Shown piece after piece: positions 27,950 through 60,919 of a DNA stretch of 64,000 nt (position 1 is its first letter; every line of letters starts with the position of its first letter). The stretch is from assembly GCF_000003605.2 (NCBI RefSeq), contig NW_003109083.1, forward strand, positions 20,976 through 84,975, given 5' to 3'. The DNA comes from Saccoglossus kowalevskii. Taxonomy: Eukaryota > Hemichordata > Enteropneusta > Harrimaniidae. Position numbers and translations under genes: made by a program. The notes beneath the pieces were generated by a model. That model ran no database searches. It saw only the letters and a list, made by a program, of their open reading frames with translations, and was not told where the DNA came from.

Positions 27950-28285
27950 ATTAATTAGCCACATTGTGTAAATAATTTTATGTGATAAAGACATACGACC
28001 AGTGGAGAAATTTGATCAAATATATAACTAGCATACCACATGTTCATATATGTGACCTAATTACCATGTCATAACTGTATATTTCAGATAAAGGCAAGCA
28101 TGTGGTCAAAGTGAGACTTCATAATATTTTGCGCGCAATACAAATTTAAATTTATGTGAATTAGAGTGTCTCTAATATAGTACATTTTTATTTGTACTCA
28201 TTTGCCTCCAACACACTTAGCACAATGTTCTTTCGCAGCTTTCTTTGATTGAAATATTCTTTTAAAATCATACATTTTCAGGAAA
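27950..28285 (+). promoter_or_regulatory. 5' flank of pseudoprotease gene, also duplicated at 48.9-49.2 kb
   Basis: The last 330 bases before the start codon align with 48905-49176: accacatgt, gtgacctaatta, aactgtat, gtggtca, gacttcataata, tttgcctccaacacactta and ctttctttgattgaaatatt. A polypyrimidine-poor AG (ttttcag) sits 5 bases before ATG, so a 5'UTR intron may end there. No clear TATA box could be assigned. The conservation of this flank between copies reflects the duplication, not necessarily function. Confidence 0.4.
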
Positions 28286-28436
28286 ATGCGTCTTGTTATC
28301 TTAATAACGTTGGCAACAGTCGCCACCGCATATGAATTCGTGGAAGGCGAGGTTACATGGAATCTTGATCGTATCGATCAATCAAAAGCTGTATGGCCAA
28401 AGTGGAATCCCGAAGTTGCAGAATATGACCCAATAG
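28286..28436 (+). CDS. Pseudoprotease exon 1
   Basis: Encodes the signal peptide and residues to Ile50, then one base of Gly51. Start ATG chosen because a hydrophobic leader (MRLVILITLATVATA) follows directly. The donor is g|gtgcgt. A dead copy of this exon lies at 49177-49316. Confidence 0.85.
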
Positions 28437-31400
28437 GTGCGTAAATATGTTTTAAATGGAGAATAATTACAGTCACCCAGGAATGCGAAATCAGAACCCA
28501 CACATGTTATATTACGACACACATTTCACCAACATGGGTAAAACTATGTGAGTGACAGAATATTTTTTCAAACTGAAAGATAACATTTTTTTATCTTGTC
28601 TCATTTGTATTTCTATTATTTGATTCGGCACTGTTTTCAACACTACTACTGCTGTTTTTTTTTTCAACTTTTGACCTATTATCATTATATAGAATTATAT
28701 TACAGTATTAACAAACCCAGTGATTTGTATATGCCATAATTGTAAATTATTCGACAAAATGAATTCTGGTCAACTGCAATTAGGCCTGGAATGAGCACGG
28801 CTCTGACAGTAACCAAATGCATGACAAGCAAATGCACGAGAACTAAAGTTAACCGGGTAAAATTAATCAACTCGAGAAAGAACCGAGTTGGCATTGGTCA
28901 AGAACAGTGGGGGTGGGGGGGGCATGCCACCCCAAACGCATGACGATTCATTTCATCTGGATTACGCATAGCTTCTCTGCGATTTACGCTCCGTATATTT
29001 TAAGCGAAGCTTGGGCTCCCTCAATACATTTTGCTGGACCCGCCACTGGTCAAGAATCACGTGATTAAATATTTAACAAGACAATATGTTACATGGTTCA
29101 GTCTTTGTCATCTGCTCTCGCGTACACTTTGCAGTGTGCATGATTTTGCGACTGACGTGCCTGTAATATTAAGCTGTCAATTCGATGGAATTAAAACGAG
29201 AAAACAATTGAAGTTCATGATATAAGATCAGTGGTCCGTAAGTATTTCGAGTCCGAGCACGAGGACAAGATTGAACTCCCCGGATGATCAAACATACATC
29301 ATATATCTTGGAATACATATGTACGTCATGTTAAAGCCAACTTATAATTATGATAATTAACTTCAACTTTTTCAAAAAAATATATAAAACGTTACCGATA
29401 TACCAATTCGATTTGAGCAAATGCTTATAAGCGTTTTTTTTTTTTTCATCGTCACAACTTCGGAACTATTTCTTAGATTAAATGATTTGAACACTCATAT
29501 GACATTGACGAATATATACTCATGCAGGCAAATCTAACAACTAATTGATCCCTAAAATATCTAAAACATAAACTGACATTGGGAGCGGGAGTTCATCGTG
29601 ACTGCCTGTTTACCACGTCACTGCTATAATAAAGCAATCTGATGTTGAAGGTGTTTGGTTAGCAAACGTCTTTCATGAAATGTTAGCCAACAAATTAGGT
29701 AATTAATCTGTAACTCAGTAAACAGAAGACAAAATGTAAACAATTCAGTGATCAGATTGTATAGCTTAATGACCAAGTTGGCCATTCTGTGCTTGCTTGT
29801 CATATTCTGTTATTAACAAATATTTACACAGGCATCGCCAACTATCATTTACGTGGTCTAAACTTATTGAAACTAAAGTTATTTTGGATGGAAGTTGATT
29901 AGCTACCTTTGAAATTATAATGAAAACCAAACACAAACACATATTTCCTTGTGTGTTTAGTTGTAATTATACATATTTTGATAATATTGTGGTCTCGTCT
30001 GCGTTTTCTTGTAGGTACCGGGACCGGCAGTGTTGTTTACATTCTCAGTACTGGAATACAGGGCACACATAATAACTTTGGACCAGGAATTGTACGCCAG
30101 ACGGTGATATATGATTTCGACCCAAACAATGTGGTATGTCACAAGCAGAAAATAGTTTTGCAAATTAGTATTTCCATTAGTATTTTACAAGTATAACAGA
30201 GTCACAGTCATGGGAAGAAGTCGCTCGTGACGTATATATTTAAAAAATAAAACGTTGACGACAATGGCCTCCGCGATCTCGTTGTCCATTAATTAATGTT
30301 CCAGTGTTCCAAACCGATAATGATAACAATAACCCGCGTGCAGTTCAAAATCTAATGCAGTCGATCTGATGTACCGCATTTATAATTAATGCAAGATTGC
30401 AAACTTTGTTGCAGCCTTCAGGTTCCGATACAGATGGTCGTGGTACAGCGTTGACTGGCGTGATTGGTGGGTTATATACAGGAGTTGCCACTGATATTGA
30501 AATTGCTACTGTGAGAGTTTCTGCAGATCCGGCTTCTGCAAATATAACATATGTTCTGGAAGGTAAATACTTACATACATATGTAGGTATAGTTTATTTC
30601 ATTCCATGACACGGTTTATACTACATTCGTTCACAATTGACTCATAACTCAATTAAATTGAAATCATCATGACGTAAATGAGTAAAAGGAATGTCTATAA
30701 AATTGGCAGTGACATTATTTTCATATAATGCTACTGTTAATCGGAGAATGAATATTGATGCACTGATCAATAGTTATAACAAAGCAAGAAAGAAGGTGAG
30801 CGCAATAGCGGACAGTACAGTGTATTTAAATTGCACATGATTAACTATGTGCTTCAGAAAAAGTAATTATACCTTTTGTTAGCTCGTCAATAAACATTGG
30901 AGCTAATCTGCACTGGCTCGGAAGGTTGTAAATGATTAGCTAGTTTGAATTTGCATAACAATACTGACAATGAACGTGCATTCAACGCCACAAGTTTTTT
31001 TGTTTTTTTAGCCAATCAGAATTCATCTTCCGAGCCAGTGCAGATCAGCCGAAACATTGATTTCAGTTATTATTATGTTACCTCCATGTATGACTCTGAT
31101 TTGGACTATCGTGTTGAAAGGTGCAATCGAAGCTTTGTATAATGTACAACACTCTGTTTGAACAATTTATGTTCTACCTTTATTCCAGGGATGCAAGCAG
31201 TTCTTGATGACTATGTTATGAGGAAAACGGCCAATCCTACAAATTATCAGCGTGGTGTCGCTATCGGCAGTGTATCTCTTGATGTATCAGTCGACCCAGC
31301 AGGTGCAGCTGCTTTGGAGGACCTTGTGGCTCAAATGGTAGCTGAAGACCTAGTAATTATTGGCAGTGTTGGAGAGAGTTTTCAAGCAGATTGCATGAAC

Positions 31401-34400
31401 TTGACACCAGCCAGATTGTATGCAGATAATAGTGTGAGTCATTAAATCCACATTATATATATTTGCTGCGAATTCTTCCACTGCATTTGATACAATAAGA
31501 CAACTGAGATTATTTTCACAGTTACTTTCAATGGTATGGCGGCACACTTTAATGTAGTGTCCTTTGTTAGATACATCTATAGTCAATCGAGTTTAAAGAT
31601 TGAAAAATGAAGATTTATCAGGTGGTGGTAATTTAGCAAAAGTTCCAACGATGCTTTATCTTTAAACATTATTTTACATAGTTTTATCCTAATTGACCTG
31701 AATATGATGCTATCAACCACAACTGCAACAAAAAAACTGCTCATGCCATCAAAATCGATCTTTAAAAATAGTGTAAAATTGAAGATTAAATTCTACATTC
31801 TTAAAATGTTGCTATTATAACTCATTTGTTTGATTTTTATTACATGGATGGTCATACTTTAAAAACAATACTTAGTAGTGATTGTGCAATCAAATATAAT
31901 AGAAATAACAATGATATCAATGTAACATCCAAATCATATGTCTAAAAGGGGAAAATGCTAGTCCGTGGACAAAACACGCTGTACAAGAGAAACAAACTAC
32001 ATAACGCAAATGCAGACAAGTTCATTACTTATGGACCCCAATGCATACAGCCATGAAATTATGTAAGGTGTTTCGAAAAGTGTAAGCACATCCTGCTCCA
32101 CATGTGGTACCCGCCACATATCAGTCTGAGTTATATTCAGGTAGTGGTCTACTTCCTACATAGGACAAATGACATCAGAGACCATCTGTTTAACAGTACG
32201 ACTATATTTTCTCACAAGCTCCTGATATCTGCCAAAAAAACTCTTGAATGTTCTGGCAACATGCTCTCTTGAGAAGCCTCGCTTTAATCTATGGCGCCTG
32301 GTAAATTCAGTATATGTGCCACACGCTCTAGCATGGCAAACATATTGTGAAATGTATGCACCATAGGCTGGAGCACGGGGAATGTTACTGGAAATATGTG
32401 GAAAATTAATAATGGCGAAATGGAAATCATCTTTTTTCGTCACATAGTCTAGTAGACATAGAGATTAATTGCAGATAAATGTCTGTTTGTGCTTTTTTTA
32501 TCTTTTAACAAGTTTTGAAGAATGTCTGCGTCATATGAGTAAATAACTAAATCTGGCAGTAAGGGAACACAATTAGTTCTCATTGGAATGCCGATGGTTT
32601 ATTGAAAGAGGTGTCCTTCAAACCCAATGAATATGTTGTAGATTAAGAATTCAAGCATACTAACAATGTCGTCCTCTGTACAGAATATCTTTGCATCAGT
32701 TTTGTTGACATTTGTAGCCTAATACAATGTATTTATATCTATGTAAACCATTTTTTAAAGAAAGCTTTATAAGGTTAGCCAATGACTTTCAGGAATTGTT
32801 TGTAAAATAGCTGATATATAATGAAAACTGCTGCCTTTATAGATAGTTTGAAATGTACATTATAACATTCATCAATTATGTATTAAAACTCAGAAGTGTC
32901 CAGGTTGTGCTTGTGAATTACTATCAAATTTAAAATAATGACAAATAAAATCGGCGTCATGGGCCAATTTTATTTTCATCAAACAGTAATTTTCACATGT
33001 ATTCACAAATATCTAAATTGCAATAAATTGTTTCACCCACAAAGATGGACATCATAATTATTCGTTCAGTGACACCTGATGTATTATTTTAAAATATTAT
33101 TTCTAATTTAATGTAATCTTATTTCAGATCATTATTGCCGGGGGAATAGACGGATTGGACTATAAAGACCCTGTGTCAAATGCTGGCGAATGTGCTGAAG
33201 TATGGGGACCTATGCAAGAGATTTGGAGTTCGGCAATTGATCCAAATGACAATTCTAGGGTTGATTACTACGCGCTTACTGATCATAGACTGATATTTGC
33301 TACTGCTCATGTGGCAGGTATTTTTTTTTTATTTGTTGATTTGTTTGATAGTGCCTTAATGATAGTTCATTGCAATAAAAGACAGTCTTCAATTCAAGTA
33401 CTTTGGTACGCAGCTAATTAAATACAACACAATAAATTTGAAGTGAAAACTAATAAGGGTAGCATTAGATAAAGGGATGCAATATATAATTGTAATTGCT
33501 TTTAAAAATCGGCAGCCCAAAATAGAATGTAGTACTCACCTACATGCTCTATACACATATTGCAGAATTTGAATCAATACAGGCAAAATATTTCAAGAGC
33601 GAAATGTGAAATGAATATTAATATTTATATATCAATACGTCCAGTAATTCCATGATTGGTTCAAACACAAAATGAATATTGTTTATATATACATGACTGT
33701 GTATAAGGCAGAAACCCACTCATATGCATATTTGTGAAAAATGACGAGTTCAAATCTGAACACGTATTTTCAATCCATGAGCAGATTTATACACTAACAA
33801 GGACTACAGAATAATATTACTATCACATAATCAACATGCGTTTACGTCTTAGCCATTCATCTCAATGTATCAAACATCTGTACAATGTCAGACATGGAAA
33901 ATAATTATTCAAATCCTTCATATAAAATGCATTGTGAAGATAGAAATACATTTTCTGATTACATAAGTTAAATCATGGAACACTATCATAGAACATGCCG
34001 AGCATTGGATGGTGTTAACATTTTTTGTGTTGTGATATTACATGCGACAGATCAGTGTATGCAAATAAATCTACTACCACACTCTTGTTTGTATATACAG
34101 GCGTTGCAGCTGTCATACGTAGCTACTGCCCAAATACTCCGAGCAACCTCGTAGGAACAATGGTTATAGAGTATGCCTTAGCAAATGGTGGGACAGCACT
34201 TATGCCTGGTACCGAAGAAGAGTTAGGTCCAGTTATTCGTATTGCGTATGTATATTTTATTTGTCTCGTTTTAAATATTAAAACTTAAACTTCGGTGACA
34301 GCTTACAGTTTGATCAATATATTTTGTATAATGCAATTACATGTTAATCAGAACAGTATGTGCTTAGCAGTTGTTTAGTAACGCATCTCATCTCAAGAAA

Positions 34401-34537
34401 CTTATATTTAATAAATTTAATATTATTATTGCTAATTGTGAAAACGTTGATAATGAATTAATGTTGATAAGTGTAAAATTTCTATTTTTTTCTCTGTATT
34501 TCACAGGACCTCCAAAGAAACTCCCGTTTGCTACTAA
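28286..34537 (+). CDS. Secreted subtilisin/proteinase K-fold protein lacking the catalytic triad (pseudoprotease), seven exons
   Basis: Exons 28286-28436, 30015-30133, 30415-30562, 31189-31433, 33128-33317, 34101-34245 and 34507-34537 have GT-AG borders and compatible phases (1,0,1,0,1,2), giving 342 residues with no stop. Residues 1-15 form a signal peptide (cleavage after ATA). The mature part starts like proteinase K, with no I9 inhibitor propeptide. The S8 fold is recognisable in order: VVYILSTGI (residues 57-65; family VxDTGI), DGRGTALTGVIGG (97-109; family GHGTHVAG), GVAIGSVSL then VIIGSVGES (family AAGN) and FATAHVAGVAA (278-288; family SMATPHVAG). Catalytic Asp, His and Ser align with S62, R99 and I277, and the oxyanion Asn with about E202. 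It is thus probably secreted and non-proteolytic: a binding, inhibitory or structural role is possible but unknown. Open frame and intact splicing argue against a pseudogene. Confidence 0.85.
28905..29048. mobile_element. hAT-type MITE in intron 1
   Basis: The element runs from CAGTGG to CCACTG, with ends CAGTGGGGGTGG and GGACCCGCCACTG. It is flanked by a perfect 8-bp direct repeat GTCAAGAA (28897-28904 and 29049-29056). CAGTGG-type ends plus an 8-bp target duplication are typical of hAT transposons. At 144 bp it is non-autonomous. Confidence 0.8.
30015..30133 (+). CDS. Pseudoprotease exon 2
   Basis: Carries residues 51-90, including the strand that in active S8 enzymes bears the catalytic Asp. 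Here ILSTGI has Ser62 at that position. Acceptor cttgtag, donor gtg|gtatgt. Confidence 0.85.
30415..30562 (+). CDS. Pseudoprotease exon 3
   Basis: Residues 91-139 with the helix that normally holds the catalytic His. The motif reads DGRGTALTG: Arg99 replaces His and the following His is Ala102. Acceptor ttgcag, donor g|gtaaat. Confidence 0.87.
30900..31051. mobile_element. Foldback MITE in intron 3
   Basis: Arms of about 23 bp (around ctgatctgcactggctcgga) face each other at 30900-30923 and 31028-31051. A perfect 8-bp direct repeat AAACATTG flanks the element at 30892-30899 and 31052-31059. The 152-bp length, long arms and 8-bp duplication indicate a non-autonomous DNA transposon of a superfamily with 8-bp targets. 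Confidence 0.8.
31189..31433 (+). CDS. Pseudoprotease exon 4
   Basis: Residues 140-221, the core strands and helix of the S8 fold, with VIIGSVGES where active enzymes have AAGN. The oxyanion Asn is replaced, probably by Glu202. Donor agt|gtgagt. Confidence 0.85.
32156..32470 (-). pseudogene. Retroelement polyprotein fragment, antisense in intron 4
   Basis: The minus frame contains KKDDFHFAIINFPHISSNIP, then APAYGAYISQYV, ARACGTY and a basic helix with FFGRYQELVRKYSRTV. This pattern (DDFxFxIVNFP, YGVYISQLxRxARAC, FYxRYxxLVxKY) is the conserved C-terminal part of reverse-transcriptase polyproteins common in marine invertebrate genomes. The RT catalytic core is absent and a stop lies just upstream. 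It is a dead fragment. I do not assign the retroelement clade. Confidence 0.6.
33128..33317 (+). CDS. Pseudoprotease exon 5
   Basis: Residues 222-284. It ends in FATAHVA, matching the MATPHVA that follows the catalytic Ser. The Ser position holds Ile277. Acceptor atttcag, donor g|gtattt. Confidence 0.86.
34101..34245 (+). CDS. Pseudoprotease exon 6
   Basis: Residues 285-332, starting GVAAVIRSYCPNTP, the buried helix after the active-site loop, then the C-terminal EYALANGGTALMPG segment. Acceptor atatacag, donor gc|gtatgt. Confidence 0.85.
34507..34537 (+). CDS. Pseudoprotease exon 7 (terminal)
   Basis: Completes Ala333 and adds TSKETPVCY, then TAA. Acceptor tttcacag fits the phase. It is very short, so an alternative last exon is possible. 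Confidence 0.65.
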
Positions 34538-34577: not shown

Positions 34578-34583
34578 AATAAA
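34578..34583 (+). promoter_or_regulatory. Polyadenylation signal of pseudoprotease gene
   Basis: AATAAA lies 40 bases after the stop codon on the same strand, followed by a T-rich stretch (ttttgtttac) about 20 bases on. The spacing fits a poly(A) site. Confidence 0.55.
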
Positions 34584-39718: not shown

Positions 39719-39989
39719 CAGACCCGCCAGAAAGTATTTACGCACCACACTACACGCAGCTACTACCTACGATATCATACAATAAAATAAACTCAATAAC
39801 GGTTTGAATAAATATATTTATATATCTAATAAAATATGCGTTTTTACACACATTAAAAACAACAAAATTGTCATTGTCATGCAGGATTGAATAAAAACGG
39901 CAGTCTGAACGAAACAGTGAAAAAACGTTCGAATTCTCTATGGAGAATACCGTGTAAATATTCATGAAGACATAGAACGCGGTGATTGT

Positions 39990-41000
39990 CAATAATGCGT
40001 GTGTCCACCTCTTCGCTGGATGACTTCTCTGAGCCGTTTTGGCATGGTATCGACGAGTTTCCGACACCTGGAACTGTCCCCAAGCTTCCATTATACTCGC
40101 GTATAAATCCTCGATGTTAGCAACTGGTCGAGAATGCACCTCTAAATCGATCAACTCCCAAAGGTTCTCTATAGTTTTCAAATCTGGAGAATGTGCAGGC
40201 CAATTCAAAGTGGTAAAGTTGTCGAAAAGATATCCGTACTCTTGTGGATTATTTAGAAAATCCCTCACTGCCAATGCCGTGTGAACGGGGGCATTATCCT
40301 GTTGGAAAGGAAAATTGGGTCTAACGAGTCTTAGTGCCAACGGTATCATTTCGTTTTGCAGGATATCTAAATATTTCCATCGATTCATGGTCGTCGGTAT
40401 ACGGACTAGCGACCCTAAGCCGGTACCCGAAAAACATCCCCACACCATGACGCTACCACCACCACATTTTATTGTAGGTTTAATGCATTTCAGCTCGTAC
40501 TCTTCACCTGGTCTCCGACGTACAATCAATCTTCCATGGCTACGAAACACCGTAAACTTTGATTCGTCCGACCAGATAACTTGAGCCCACTGCGCCGGAG
40601 TCCAATCGATGTGTTGTCTGGCAATTGCAACCGCGCTGCGATGTGTCGAGGTTGTAGTTTTGGTTTCGTTTTAGCAACACAGCCGCGAAGATTACCATCC
40701 TCATATAGTCATGATTTGATAGTGCTCAAACTCAATCTTTTCCCAGTGAGTTGATTAAAATTGTCACGCAAATCACGGGCGGTGTGAAACCGATTCTTCG
40801 TGTTGCGTTGTACGCCTTGGTCGACCTGATCGACGACGATTGCCCATACTACCTCGCACACGAAGTTTTCGCAGGTTGAAACGTATGGAGCCTTCAGAAA
40901 TTCCCAGTCGTCTTCCTATTTCCCTATTAGAAACTCCTTCTGTATACAGTGCTTCAATGTTCCCTTTAGTAAATTCTGACAATTCCCTAACTTTCGGCAT
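39990..41000 (-). pseudogene. Tc1 transposase, frameshifted
   Basis: Starts at ATG 41000 with FTKGNIEALYTEGVSNREIG, a paired-type helix-turn-helix, and continues to RRRSGRPRRT, where the frame breaks at about 40780. The catalytic part resumes: WSDESKF (first Asp) near 40570, the GGGSVMVWGCFS motif, FQQDNAPVHTA (second Asp) and SPDLKTIENLWELI (Glu, DD34E spacing). Near 40050 another shift occurs, since the family ending with PKR-x-x-E-V-I is in a different frame. At least one stop lies between the two halves. All three acidic residues remain, but the protein cannot be made intact. Confidence 0.85.
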
Positions 41001-41964: not shown

Positions 41965-44104
41965 TAGATTTAAATAGTAAAAATGCAGTTTTTTAGATAA
42001 CAACATTATCGACCTTTTACCTTAATAAATGTTGATTTTAAAATCGCATCCAAGGCAATTGCAAAAAAATTCAAATGTCTTGCCAAAAATAATAAATCCA
42101 GATCAGTGTGTATATGTGAAGGGTCTTTACTTTGGAGATGCAGTGCGTACAGTGCTAGATATAATGTGGTTAACAAGACAACCAGAATAAACCAGGAGTC
42201 TTGTTATCACCAGACTTTCAAAAGGCATTTGACAGTTAACCATAGTTTTATCATAGCAACGTTAAAAGCAATCAATTTTGGTAATGATTTCATTAATTGG
42301 CTATCAGTATTTTACAAAAATATTACGTCTTGTGTTATGAATCACGGTAGGTCAATTGGTTACTTCCCAGTAGCTAGAGGGGTTCGCCAAGGTGACCCTT
42401 GTTAGCCATAGCAATTAGAGAAAACCCAACTATTTAAACTTGTAATGTACGCAGACGATATATCATGTTTAGTTCATCCATCCTCAATACAAAGTATTTT
42501 TTTATAATCAATAATTTTTGTAAATGCATTGGGTTAAGATTAAATAGGGACAAAAAAGAAGCACTTTTGATGGGTTATGGCCACAAATCGAAAGATAGAA
42601 AGGATATAAAAATGTCCGATGGGTTAAGGGTTCTGAGTATTTTTGTAACTTATAATGAGAAGCTATTCATTTCTGAGAATTTCAATTTAATATTGACAAA
42701 ATTGAAACAGTTATGTGGCTCGTGGTCTCTGAGAGGGTTATCAGTTATTGGCAAAATTCAGATTTTAAAAACACTTGGTATCCCAAAATGTGTGTATGTT
42801 TCGACAATGATCTCAACCCCTAAAGTAATTGTAAAGGCAATTAAACAATTTTCATTTAATTTCATTTGGAAAGGTCGCTACTGGGTTAAAATAAGCTCTT
42901 TAATTGCGGGTATAGAGGATGGAGGCATGAACATGGTAGAAATTGAATATTTTCTAAAAGCACAAAGAATGAAATGGGTTCTACGACTGTTTTCGTCTGA
43001 ACCAGCTGGTTGGAGAAACATTATAGAACCATTATTAAATATTAAATATATTAAATATTAAAGGGGTTAGACGTGTATTATTTTGTAATTTTTATGTAGA
43101 AAGTTTGGTAGATAATTTACCACCATCAAGCGTTGTGGAACAACTGCTTTATTAAAATTCCAAACAAACCAGTTTCTTTTAAATCTCTGGAAAATCGAGG
43201 CATTGGTCGCATTATTGACTTAATTGATAAGAATGGGACTTTTCATAATTGGCAGTACTGGAATATGAAGGATATTACACAGATTGAATTCATTCAAATA
43301 AAAGGTCTTATATCAGCTACACCTAAAGATTGAAAGGAAATTATTTTTAACTGAAGACATACCTGGTTTGAATCTCATTATAATAGTATTTGTTGGGAAG
43401 AAGAATACATTAATGTTAAATTCTTAACAACTAAACTAATTTACAGAAAAATATGTAAACAAATAATTGAGCCACCCTCGATAGTGCAAACATTTGGGAA
43501 CGCTTATGATATCTCTGCGGAAAATGTTTCCGTTATCTTTAAATTGCCATTCATAACTACTATACCAAGTGCTCTGAGAGCATTCCAGTACTAAATTCAT
43601 TACAGTTATCTTGTTATAAACAGTAAATTTGTCGTGTTAATGACGAAACCTTACATCACTTGTTTGTAGGTTGTCGTTTTGTGCACGAATTATGGGAATT
43701 GTTGCAAGAACAGTTTGAAGTAATTAGACATATAAGCTGTAACTACAAAAATATCCCAAATTGGAATATACAACTCACCAAAAAACCAAATGTTAAACCA
43801 TACCATAATTTTATTCAAATGGCTTATTTATTTAAGTATTACAAAAAATCGAAAGGTTATCATATTATGCGTTTAAGATGTTTGTTCTTTCCAATAGACA
43901 AGTTGAATATGAAATTGCAAAAAGAAATAATAAGGTCAACTTACATTTGGAAAAATGGGAGAAAGCTGAAAACTGGTTTAATAATTAAATGCTGTATTCG
44001 TACACCAGATCATCTTTTGTTTTTGCATTTCCTTTTGTAATTTTGTTTTTGTGTATGTGTATGTAAATCCTTTATTCGTATAATAAAAAAATAAAAAATA
44101 AATA
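41965..44104 (+). mobile_element. L1/Tx1-like LINE, 3' part (reverse transcriptase)
   Basis: Continuation of the LINE. CVYVKGLYFGDAVRTVLDI (42105) is the first RT motif, DFQKAFDS at 42207 holds a catalytic Asp, RGVRQGDP at 42380 and YADD at 42448-42459 complete the RT core. Then LRLNRDKKEALLMGYG, WSLRGLSVIGKIQILKT and the C-terminal thumb follow in a 198-codon open stretch (42465-43061). More distal frames (43133-43333, 43660-44040) continue to a CFFPIDKLN-like tail. Several stops and shifts separate the blocks. It ends in an A-rich tail (ataataaaaaaataaaaaat), consistent with target-primed insertion. Confidence 0.82.
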
Positions 44105-48300: not shown

Positions 48301-49176
48301 ATAATACATTATTGTGTCACATCTGTGAAGAATATTATTCAACACATACTAATTATTGAGTGTGTTATATAAGTTAAGTTTATTGTTCGGACGGTACCGG
48401 CTACCTTAAATCACAAATATAAAATGAAGATTTATTGTTAGAGTTTCTTTCACAAATAACATTTTGGGCGATACTGTCGTCAATTAATTATCGGTAATGT
48501 TTGCTAAAGAAGAACATATTTCAACTAACATCAATTATACCAATCAAGTCAACTTTACTTATATTGTAAATATACTTGAATAAGTCCTTGCAGGAAGTGC
48601 TATTTGCCGTAAATTTGTGAAAATATTAAACGTTATCCAGAAACCAATCAATTGAATGCTAGTTGAGAAGAACTACCAGCGGAATCTACTATACGAAGTA
48701 ATAAGTGAAACAGGAAAAAGATGGACCAACAACGACAGAGGTCAAACACTCCAGGTGTACTTAATTTGAAAAATAGACAGTACTGTCTTTCTCTGACACA
48801 CGAACTGGTGTATTGAGTAAGTGAGCCATTTTTCCTAATCATATGCATAACTACAATGAATTAAGAACTGTTATAAATAATGACATGCAGCCAATGTTGT
48901 AATAAAGACCTTTGACTGACATACCACATGTGTCATTCCATGTGACCTCATTAATATGAATAACTGTATTATGCCAAAAAGACAAGTGTGTGGTCAGACT
49001 TCATAATACATAATACTTATAAAATTAGTTTTATGTGAATGGAGTTGTGCCTCTAATATAGTAAGTACAGTATTCCTTAATTGTACTTATTTGCGTCCAA
49101 TACACTTACCACATTGGAGTTGTTCCTAAGCTTTCTTTAATTGAAATATTCTTTTAAAACATGCATTTTCAAGAAA

Positions 49177-49316
49177 ATTCCTAGTAATGTTGGTAACAGT
49201 TGCCAGCACATACGAATTTATGAAAGGCGATGTTACATCGAATCTTGATCGTATCGATCAATCAAAAGCTGTATGATCAAACTGGAATCCGAAAGTTGTA
49301 GATTATAACCCAACAG
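49177..49316 (+). pseudogene. Dead copy of pseudoprotease exon 1
   Basis: Aligns with 28286-28436: the run cttgatcgtatcgatcaatc is identical in both. The start codon is ATT, about 7 bases are deleted in the leader (frameshift), Trp37 is TGA, the preceding AG is AA and the donor GT is AC. It therefore cannot be translated or spliced. The rest of the gene is absent, so this is a truncated duplicate, not a processed copy, because promoter-side sequence was duplicated with it. Confidence 0.85.
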
Positions 49317-49330
49317 ACGCGTGAATATAC

Positions 49331-58496: not shown

Positions 58497-60561
58497 CTAA
58501 TCTCTGAGAATGATTAAATCTTTTTTGTTCGCATTGAGCAATAAAATATTACTGTCTTTCTTGCAACACTCGTCACGCAAATAATTCAATAATTGCTCTT
58601 TAATTTCGGGTTTGCAAGTTTCCCGAAATTTATAGATTTGTGTGAAGAAATCTAACTTGTATGAACCGCTTTGGGATTCTTCATCAAAACAATTTGTTAC
58701 GTCAATCCAATATTCCCTACATTTTGTTTGATATTTGACATACGGAAGCCTACGTTTAAATATGTCTTCGATGGCCTGAATTCCAATAAAGTTAAGATTT
58801 GAACTACAGTAGTACTCCCCGACCTTTACAGATAACTTTGTCCATCCGCCTATGAAAGAAAAAAGAGCATTTGTCAATCCCTCAAGACCACACATATCAA
58901 CATAATATTAACTTTGACTGAAATAACTTTTTAAGCTTCATATTAAAACACTTTTGCTTACACAGTCTGAAAACAGGGACTTATGGATTGAATTCAGTGC
59001 GTCCGTGTGTGCATCTGGACCTATATCTTAGACATGCATGAACCAATTACATTCATTTTTTTCAGATCTGATTTAAAATGGCCGACTGGCGGATATTTAG
59101 TTTTAATAAATGCAGTTTTCGTCCCATATCCGTGCCATGCTTTGACTAAATATTTTCAAATTATATATATTCATTATACATCATGGTTTGAGTGTCTGAT
59201 TAAACTGGTCAAATGGCGGACACGTTTGTTCTACAAGATCATCAAAAAAATTATGGATGGATTCTGTTCTGACTTGGTACTTGGTACATTAGACATTATG
59301 GGTCTCTGATTTTTTCAGATTGGATTCCAAATGACTGACAGGCGGCCATTTTGTTTTAATTAATGCGGTTGTAGCGCCATATTTTTGGCTTGACTGTTAA
59401 TGCTCAAATTGATATATTCGTTATACATCAGGTTATATATATATATAGATGTATTTAAAATGACGGATCGGTGGCCATTTAATTTTAATTAATGTTGTTA
59501 CTGAGCATTTTATCTCAATATGGACATGTACTCGTTTGACGATCATATACAAGATGTCAATCATTTTAATGTTAACAAATCATCATAATCAAGCATCAGC
59601 CTCTGGATTTATACTTGATGTCCCAACTATATTACTATCAACAAAAGTATATATTTAAGTTTGAAAACTAACGGAGACTGTTCCCCTTGCATGTCTTGTT
59701 TTCAATAAATCGTGCGCATTTGGCTATTATATGTTTTGAATGACTGTTAGCCGAGATAATAGACTAAATAGTCAATGACAATAGAGTAGAGAGACACATG
59801 GAATTAGTAGTGGAAAATCAAATTAGTTACATGTGTGTCTTTAACGCATGTTTTTTTTTTTTTTTTTTTTTTTGCTTCACTATTTTTGACTCAAAAGCCT
59901 GAAAACAAAATATTACATGTAATAACGTAAATAATGGGTTGTTACGTTCTATCCGTGTTGGATGTTCTTTTTTCTGGGTACCTATATAACAGTTGCTGTT
60001 GTACTTAACAAATGAGCCAAGCAATAAATGTTTATACGTTTATTGTTGGCTTGAAATGGGTTTTAGATTGTGATTCAATCCAAATCTGTCCTAGGAGAGT
60101 TGTAAATAAACACTTACATAAGTGAAACCTGGAGTGATGCATTTGATTCCACAAAACAAGTGGTGATATACTTGAAATAAAAGCATAACAGTATTTTCAA
60201 TTAAAGAAATTAATAATTAATTGAGTTGCCAAAAAGTACATACCATCACCCATTGTGAAATACAGCATTCCTCCTTTAACTAGACAATTGTATAATTTCA
60301 TCGTGGTATCCTCAAGGTGTTTGAAATGATAAGCCGAATTTGAGACAACTACCATACCAAATTGTTTCTCACCATTCTTCTCCAAGTACTTTTCAATCGT
60401 AATTTTTTGGAAGTCAAATGTGACGTTGCACCATTTGTCGGATTTATATTCCACCAAATCTTTAAATTTTGATAGTTCCTCAGCAGCAGGTTCAACAGCT
60501 ATGTACGTAATATTTGCGTATTTAGCTATCAAGTTGTCTATGATTAGCTCATCTACTTGTC
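58497..60561 (-). CDS. Histamine N-methyltransferase-like enzyme, last two exons
   Basis: Exons 60561-60244 and 58849-58497 are joined in phase 1 with good AG and GT borders and no stops (about 222 residues). The first begins GQVDELIIDNLIAKY, directly after where the family has its glycine-rich SAM motif (on an earlier exon, not found here). It includes YIAVEPAAEELSKFKDLV (SAM-binding Glu of motif II) and MVVVSNSAYHFKHLED. The second begins GGWTKLS and contains YWIDVTNCFDEE and FFTQIYKFRETCKPEIKEQL, the C-terminal lid of HNMT, ending at TAA. In human HNMT the Gln that contacts histamine (Q143) aligns with Ser here, while the C-terminal Asn (N283) appears kept. The substrate may therefore be a different small amine; this is inference. 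Family role: SAM-dependent N-methylation in the cytosol. The 5' exons lie beyond 60561, perhaps outside the window. Confidence 0.8.
59060..59510 (+). repeat. Repeats with ATGGC..GGCGG...CATTT core, in HNMT-like intron
   Basis: The sequence ttttttcagat-tgattt-aaaatg followed by g-cgactggcgg-catttagttttaat-aatg occurs at about 59060 and 59310, and part again near 59460. Spacing is about 250 bp. It lies antisense in the intron between the two HNMT-like exons. The shared core suggests an interspersed repeat or decayed tandem array. Confidence 0.6.
59851..59873. repeat. Homopolymer T run (23)
   Basis: Uninterrupted T tract. On the minus strand it is an A tract, possibly the tail of an old retroposed insertion. 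No body was identified. Confidence 0.9.
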
Positions 60562-60919
60562 CTGAAACAAAATGTATCGTTGTCTAATTTTATGAGATTT
60601 TCTGAAAATAAAAGTAGAATGTTATATTCGGGTTTCGAAAAAGAGTTTTGTCTTGTTAATTCGTGTTTAATCTTGTAAATTACAATGTGACAGTATTGGT
60701 GTTGAATTAATAAATTTCCTGTTTGTTGAATATTTTTGCATTATAATTTTTATCTATTTATTTTATGTTAAAAATTACTAAATACAATGTTTTGATGAAA
60801 TTCACATATGTTTCAACATATAATACAGGCTATTACCAATAAAACATTGTAGTCCAAATAATTCAATATGCGTATATGAAAGTAGGATTGCTGTATACGG
60901 ACGCCATGCATGTGGCATA
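60562..60919. other. Intron or 5' flank of HNMT-like gene
   Basis: No exon with the expected glycine-rich SAM motif was seen on the minus strand here. Confidence 0.4.

Follow-up and report, generated by a model that had tools for sequence, protein, structure and literature searches.

What could an apparently secreted proteinase K-type protein do once every one of its catalytic positions has been replaced? The question is raised by a gene at 28286-34537 on the forward strand of the window, by which we mean the whole 64,000-nucleotide stretch of Saccoglossus kowalevskii DNA that was analyzed. An earlier note on this DNA had joined seven exons without a stop into 342 residues, and our model likewise joins seven exons into 342 residues, with all six introns of the GT-AG type in phases 1,0,1,0,1,2 and a TAA stop after the last codon. 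Exon 1 (28286..28436) carries the start codon, a signal-like peptide (MRLVILITLATVATA) and, directly after it, the start of the mature domain without any propeptide. The column of the catalytic Asp falls in exon 2 (30015..30133; Ser62, in YILSTGI) and that of the catalytic His in exon 3 (30415..30562; Arg99, in DGRGTAL), while exon 4 (31189..31433) encodes a family-specific NPxNYxRGV stretch, Glu202 in the oxyanion Asn column, and Cys208. Exon 5 (33128..33317) contributes Cys243 and Ile277 in the catalytic Ser column (HRLIFATAHVAG), exon 6 (34101..34245) runs from GVAAVIRSYC into a C-terminal extension, and exon 7 (34507..34537) supplies the final residues, including Cys341. All seven lie on the forward strand, as does a polyadenylation signal (AATAAA, 34578..34583) about 40 bases 3' of the stop. 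At the other end, an acceptor-like AG immediately 5' of GAAAATG, noted by eye, points to a 5' UTR intron. Because the same structure recurs in three more intact paralogues, it is not a product of chance. A pseudogene by broken frame was rejected, the gene having no stops, frameshifts or splice-site defects; an in-frame stop can be seen in an exon-1 remnant at 49178. The neighborhood gave no functional context among the 10 of 245 open frames of at least 60 amino acids in the window that were scanned with Pfam: a DDE transposase (39753-40670, minus strand) scored above the cut-off, a reverse transcriptase fragment (42001-42402, plus strand) just under it, and a zinc-finger match also under it. 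The Pfam matches of a methyltransferase-like open frame (60200-60583, minus strand) were likewise below the cut-off; by eye, this frame recalls histamine N-methyltransferase. The mitochondrial contig of the assembly fits S. kowalevskii in gene order and code, and the window is most likely from Saccoglossus or a close relative. Its genes, named by eye, run atp6, cox3, nad3, nad4L, nad4, nad5, cob and -nad6; a stretch without annotation, which presumably contains the rRNA genes, comes next, followed by nad2, nad1 and cox1 inverted. In COX1, ATA occurs at two sites where other animals have Ile, and AAA occurs once, at a Lys. Reading AUA as Ile is characteristic of Ambulacraria, AAA encodes Lys in Saccoglossus, and S. 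kowalevskii is set apart from Balanoglossus by an inverted COX1 and a transposed ND1 or ND2 (PMC2697986 and PMC3121625).

We compared the window protein with the PDB by phmmer and obtained 38 chains at E <=0.01, the top five of which were all of the proteinase K type: 2b6n (1.1e-15), 1s2n (1.7e-15), 4dzt (aqualysin-1; 6e-15), and 5wsl and 8c4z (both 2.4e-14). The Pfam model PF00082 matched at 27.8 bits, over a cut-off of 21.8. Membership in the S8 family is assigned by sequence similarity in the catalytic domain, and both sets of matches place the window protein there. The PDB alignment starts at the N-terminal end of the mature enzymes (VTWNLDRIDQ in the window protein against TWGIDRIDQ), right after the hydrophobic signal-like stretch. 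The description of the product as a secreted proteinase K-type protein is borne out by these matches and, as regards secretion, by the appearance of the signal peptide, which was judged by eye and makes the protein probably a secreted one. The sequence alignment extends over the domain, and the S8 fold may be retained.

We searched the 572 Mb assembly with the window protein and found four full genes of this kind, hereafter the dead family: the window gene, paralogues A and B on contig C1595, and paralogue C on contig C3172. When the window protein, B and C were each used as queries against the genome, no further full members appeared; the searches yielded the four genes, one exon remnant and weak active-type matches at E 0.02-0.46. 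Modelled by hand, A, B and C had open frames, GT-AG introns throughout and six intron phases identical to those of the window gene, and the proteins were 72%, 58% and 34% identical to the window protein, respectively. Paralogue A was the only one of the four without a Pfam match. In a tree of 10 sequences, which is small and in which C forms a long branch, the branch separating the four dead proteins from the enzymes had a support of 100/100. All four copies have the NPxNYxRGV stretch and a C-terminal extension. We also observed a C-terminus of the form SPxxLLYCD repeated in several active paralogues on contig C4556, its Cys being aligned with Cys341 of the dead family. The dead proteins are acidic (pI 4.1-4.4), which is no special mark of the family since the modelled active proteins are acidic too, if slightly less so (4.6 and 5.0). 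The exon remnant (49178..49312, plus strand) is a degenerate copy of exon 1 that contains an in-frame stop and lies about 20 kb 3' of the window gene; the region around it, 48920-49328, is 75% identical to 28032-28448, which spans exon 1 and its upstream region, and no further exons were found beside it.

We then examined the catalytic positions in a joint alignment of the four dead paralogues, two active paralogues (act1 and act2) and four PDB chains. The window protein has none of the triad residues, Asp, His and Ser being aligned with Ser62, Arg99 and Ile277, and the oxyanion Asn is replaced by Glu202; these are the very residues that had been proposed from the sequence before. In the order window, A, B and C, the Asp column reads S, S, G and G, the His column R, R, R and L, the Asn column E, D, M and D, and the Ser column I, A, S and P. 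All four sites are therefore changed in three of the four paralogues, with B retaining the Ser alone, while D, H, N and S are present in all six active sequences. Taken together, the tree and this site table suggest at least two losses of the catalytic Ser, or else its recovery in B. A search of the window with four queries of the active type gave no alternative exon whose catalytic motif was intact.

The active relatives pointed to a second loss. Both act1 and act2, which lie on C4556, carry D, H, N and S. Each has a signal-like peptide and a propeptide that is divided among portions of exons 1 to 3. Their intron phases are 0,0,1,0,1,0,1, the last five of which, in the mature domain, equal the first five of the dead family. 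Given these common phases, propeptide-bearing secreted proteases are the most likely ancestors of the dead genes. The I9 propeptide of active S8 enzymes is lacking in all four dead proteins: the Pfam I9 model matched act1 and act2 at E 0.002 and 0.004, which is under the curated cut-off, and matched 0/4 dead proteins, whose genes join signal peptide and mature domain in one exon. With the four active-type queries, the search for a hidden propeptide exon in the window gave one 22-residue match on the opposite strand at E 0.59, which we took as chance. A genome-wide search with the I9 model at E 0.001 gave nothing anywhere and cannot alone show absence; it is not very informative, as the propeptide is divided among exons and even the spliced active proteins reach just the E values given above. 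The residues YEFVEGE that precede VTWNLDR in the window protein resemble the end of the active propeptide, FEYIEEDG, and from this likeness the signal peptide and the propeptide end may have become fused in the dead genes. The earlier note had missed the propeptide loss, the four-gene family and the presence of active relatives in the same genome.

Other S8 exons were found in the genome, with at least 33 matches to PF00082 and at least 102 to one active query, its own exons included. Among 20 stretches from the PF00082 list, a list that is biased toward active members since a model of active enzymes was used to compile it, GTS was present in 16/16 Ser-exon alignments, and the other 4 had no Ser-exon alignment. 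Secreted S8 genes of the proteinase K type whose Ser exons have GTS appear to have expanded greatly, on contigs C4556, C3060, C2117, C2747, C131 and C2347. Another S8 paralogue (C3701:79600-87120) keeps its Asp, His and Ser motifs (GTSSSTAHVAG), and its oxyanion Asn is apparently Gly (SAGGAATNAC), which makes a second, partial loss of activity possible. Used as a query against prokaryote genomes, the family alignment gave 11 bacterial loci at 24-27% identity. Bacterial dead relatives were rejected as a candidate, as Asp, His and Ser were kept in 11/11 of these loci and Asn in 10/11, the remaining one, at a contig end, aligning Ala.

We consider it fairly probable that the four genes form a lineage-specific family of secreted, catalytically dead scaffold or binding proteins built on the proteinase K-type S8 domain. 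Such a protein would fold without a propeptide, be secreted, and act outside the cell with no enzymatic activity, binding by parts of its surface away from the former active site; the NPxNYxRG block, and the new Cys294 with Cys341, are the candidate surfaces. More tentatively, it is possible that the family represents a proteinase K fold freed from its folding chaperone, in which the loss of catalysis allowed the propeptide to be dropped as well and an unaided fold gave a secreted scaffold that binds via the NPxNYxRGV stretch and the C-terminal extension. The substrate side of the protein bears on what it might bind. The GSG loop of the enzymes reads ADPAS, ADPTS, ADPSY and DEPSY in the window protein, A, B and C, and their SLGGG reads AIGS, ALGS, ALGG and VLLC, followed by an insertion, while GxGT is retained throughout the family. 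We take the GSG-loop and SLGGG segments to be the lining of the substrate cleft. With these segments altered and the former catalytic positions differing among the paralogues, a scaffold or ligand role appears likelier than a substrate trap or decoy, bearing in mind that four columns alone give no statistical proof. Of the binding, decoy or matrix roles suggested in the earlier note, the decoy is thus weakened, and a binding or matrix role may still apply.

The main rival to the scaffold or binding role is regulation of active sister S8 proteases, which the dead proteins might pair with, chaperone or compete with by analogy with CspC and CspA in Clostridioides difficile spore germination. The many active-type S8 exons (the at least 102 matches above) speak for it, as do the precedents of CspC and CspA (PMC6636752) and of PIMMS2 (PMC5520436). 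Linkage was not seen, however, the dead genes being on C346, C1595 and C3172, contigs absent among the PF00082 and active-query matches listed, and the former cleft is altered in the dead family; we therefore regard a regulatory role as unlikely, though it is the strongest of the alternatives.

A further question was whether the open frames are being maintained. Pairwise codon maximum likelihood gave omega values of 0.50 (window-A), 0.32 (window-B) and 0.28 (A-B), with 2dlnL against an omega of 1 of 16.2, 52.1 and 61.2, respectively; these are the three usable pairs, window-C being saturated with no usable value. Simple counting gave 0.48, 0.37 and 0.38 for the same pairs. By exon, omega for window-A was 0.23-0.74, and 2.2 for exon 7, which has nine codons. 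Purifying selection on the dead frames is significant yet weak, their omega being ~3.5-6 times that of the active pair (act1-act2, 0.079 at t 4.2, near saturation). The claim that the frame is kept under constraint agreed with these values, omega being below 1 in all three usable pairs, and part of the constraint could be older than the loss of catalysis. The window gene combines lost catalytic residues with an intact, constrained frame, as expected of S8 pseudoproteases in general. That these are recently relaxed genes heading for pseudogenes, with frames open only transiently, would fit the omega of up to 0.50 and the decayed exon-1 copy ~20 kb 3'; we give this little credence in view of the four open frames and their undamaged splice sites, dS values of 0.37-2.0 in five pairs with the sixth saturated, an omega significantly below 1 in the usable pairs, and 91/334 gap-free columns that are invariant.

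Across the four dead paralogues, 19 Asp/His/Ser/Cys/Glu/Lys columns are invariant, most of them common to the enzymes. Cys208, Cys243, several structural Asp and Ser, and His69 are preserved, and the invariant residues new to the dead family are Asp193, Asp262, Lys152 and Cys294; no new invariant His or Ser was found in the joint alignment. We rejected a relocated triad as unlikely on this alignment: the sole invariant His, His69, is also present in all six active sequences, in addition to the catalytic one. Intact Asp, His and Ser at other positions, which the earlier note had named as a possible objection, have no counterpart at the sequence level. That the dead proteins are still enzymes through a relocated or new active site, as the Ser of paralogue B, the acidic residue that three of the four copies have where the enzymes have the oxyanion Asn, and the new Asp193, Asp262 and Cys294 might suggest, is very improbable given that His69 is their only invariant His and that they have no propeptide to cleave.

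We searched the open-access literature (titles and abstract openings, with hemichordate and Saccoglossus terms included) and found no propeptide-less animal S8 pseudoprotease family among the papers listed; the pseudoprotease literature otherwise gave S1 or Plasmodium cases. S8 pseudoproteases are already known in CspC and PIMMS2, and what is new here is a four-gene animal family without the propeptide. Folding of S8 enzymes is generally considered to depend on the propeptide. An animal family without both propeptide and catalysis would allow a direct test of whether self-cleavage is the reason that the fold needs a chaperone, and the Ser-bearing paralogue B and the many active relatives in the same genome add to the usefulness of that test. 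The dead family would also show a route from a secreted protease to a non-enzymatic extracellular protein. CspB, for its part, needs its propeptide to fold, according to PMC6636752.

When compared with the proteinase K-type S8 enzymes (2b6n, 1s2n, 4dzt and 5wsl, and act1 and act2), the mature domain of the dead family is alignable, the columns of the structural Asp, Ser and His and of Cys208 and Cys243 are common to both, and the intron phases are shared with act1 and act2. The dead family differs in having lost the catalytic Asp, His and oxyanion Asn (4/4) and the Ser (3/4), in having no I9 propeptide, and in its C-terminal extension and insertions, which relative to act1 are of 1-7 residues within the domain and 12 near the C-terminus. 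In C. difficile, CspA and CspC are S8 pseudoproteases with two triad residues changed (PMC6636752), and CspC retains its prodomain uncleaved and has a jelly-roll insertion. Lost catalytic residues are thus common to these proteins and the dead family, and the role of CspC and CspA is non-enzymatic; unlike CspC, the dead family has neither a prodomain nor the jelly-roll insertion, which is of ~130 amino acids in CspC, the whole window protein being of 342. PIMMS2 of Plasmodium (PMC5520436) is a potential pseudoenzyme of the subtilisin type that is found at the surface and has a signal peptide; its sites vary among orthologues, the P. berghei protein retaining the D, H, S and N residues. PIMMS2 has a transmembrane domain and a long C-terminal extension of its own, whereas the dead family is without a membrane anchor; a subtilisin-like domain, an apparent signal peptide and varying catalytic sites are common to both.
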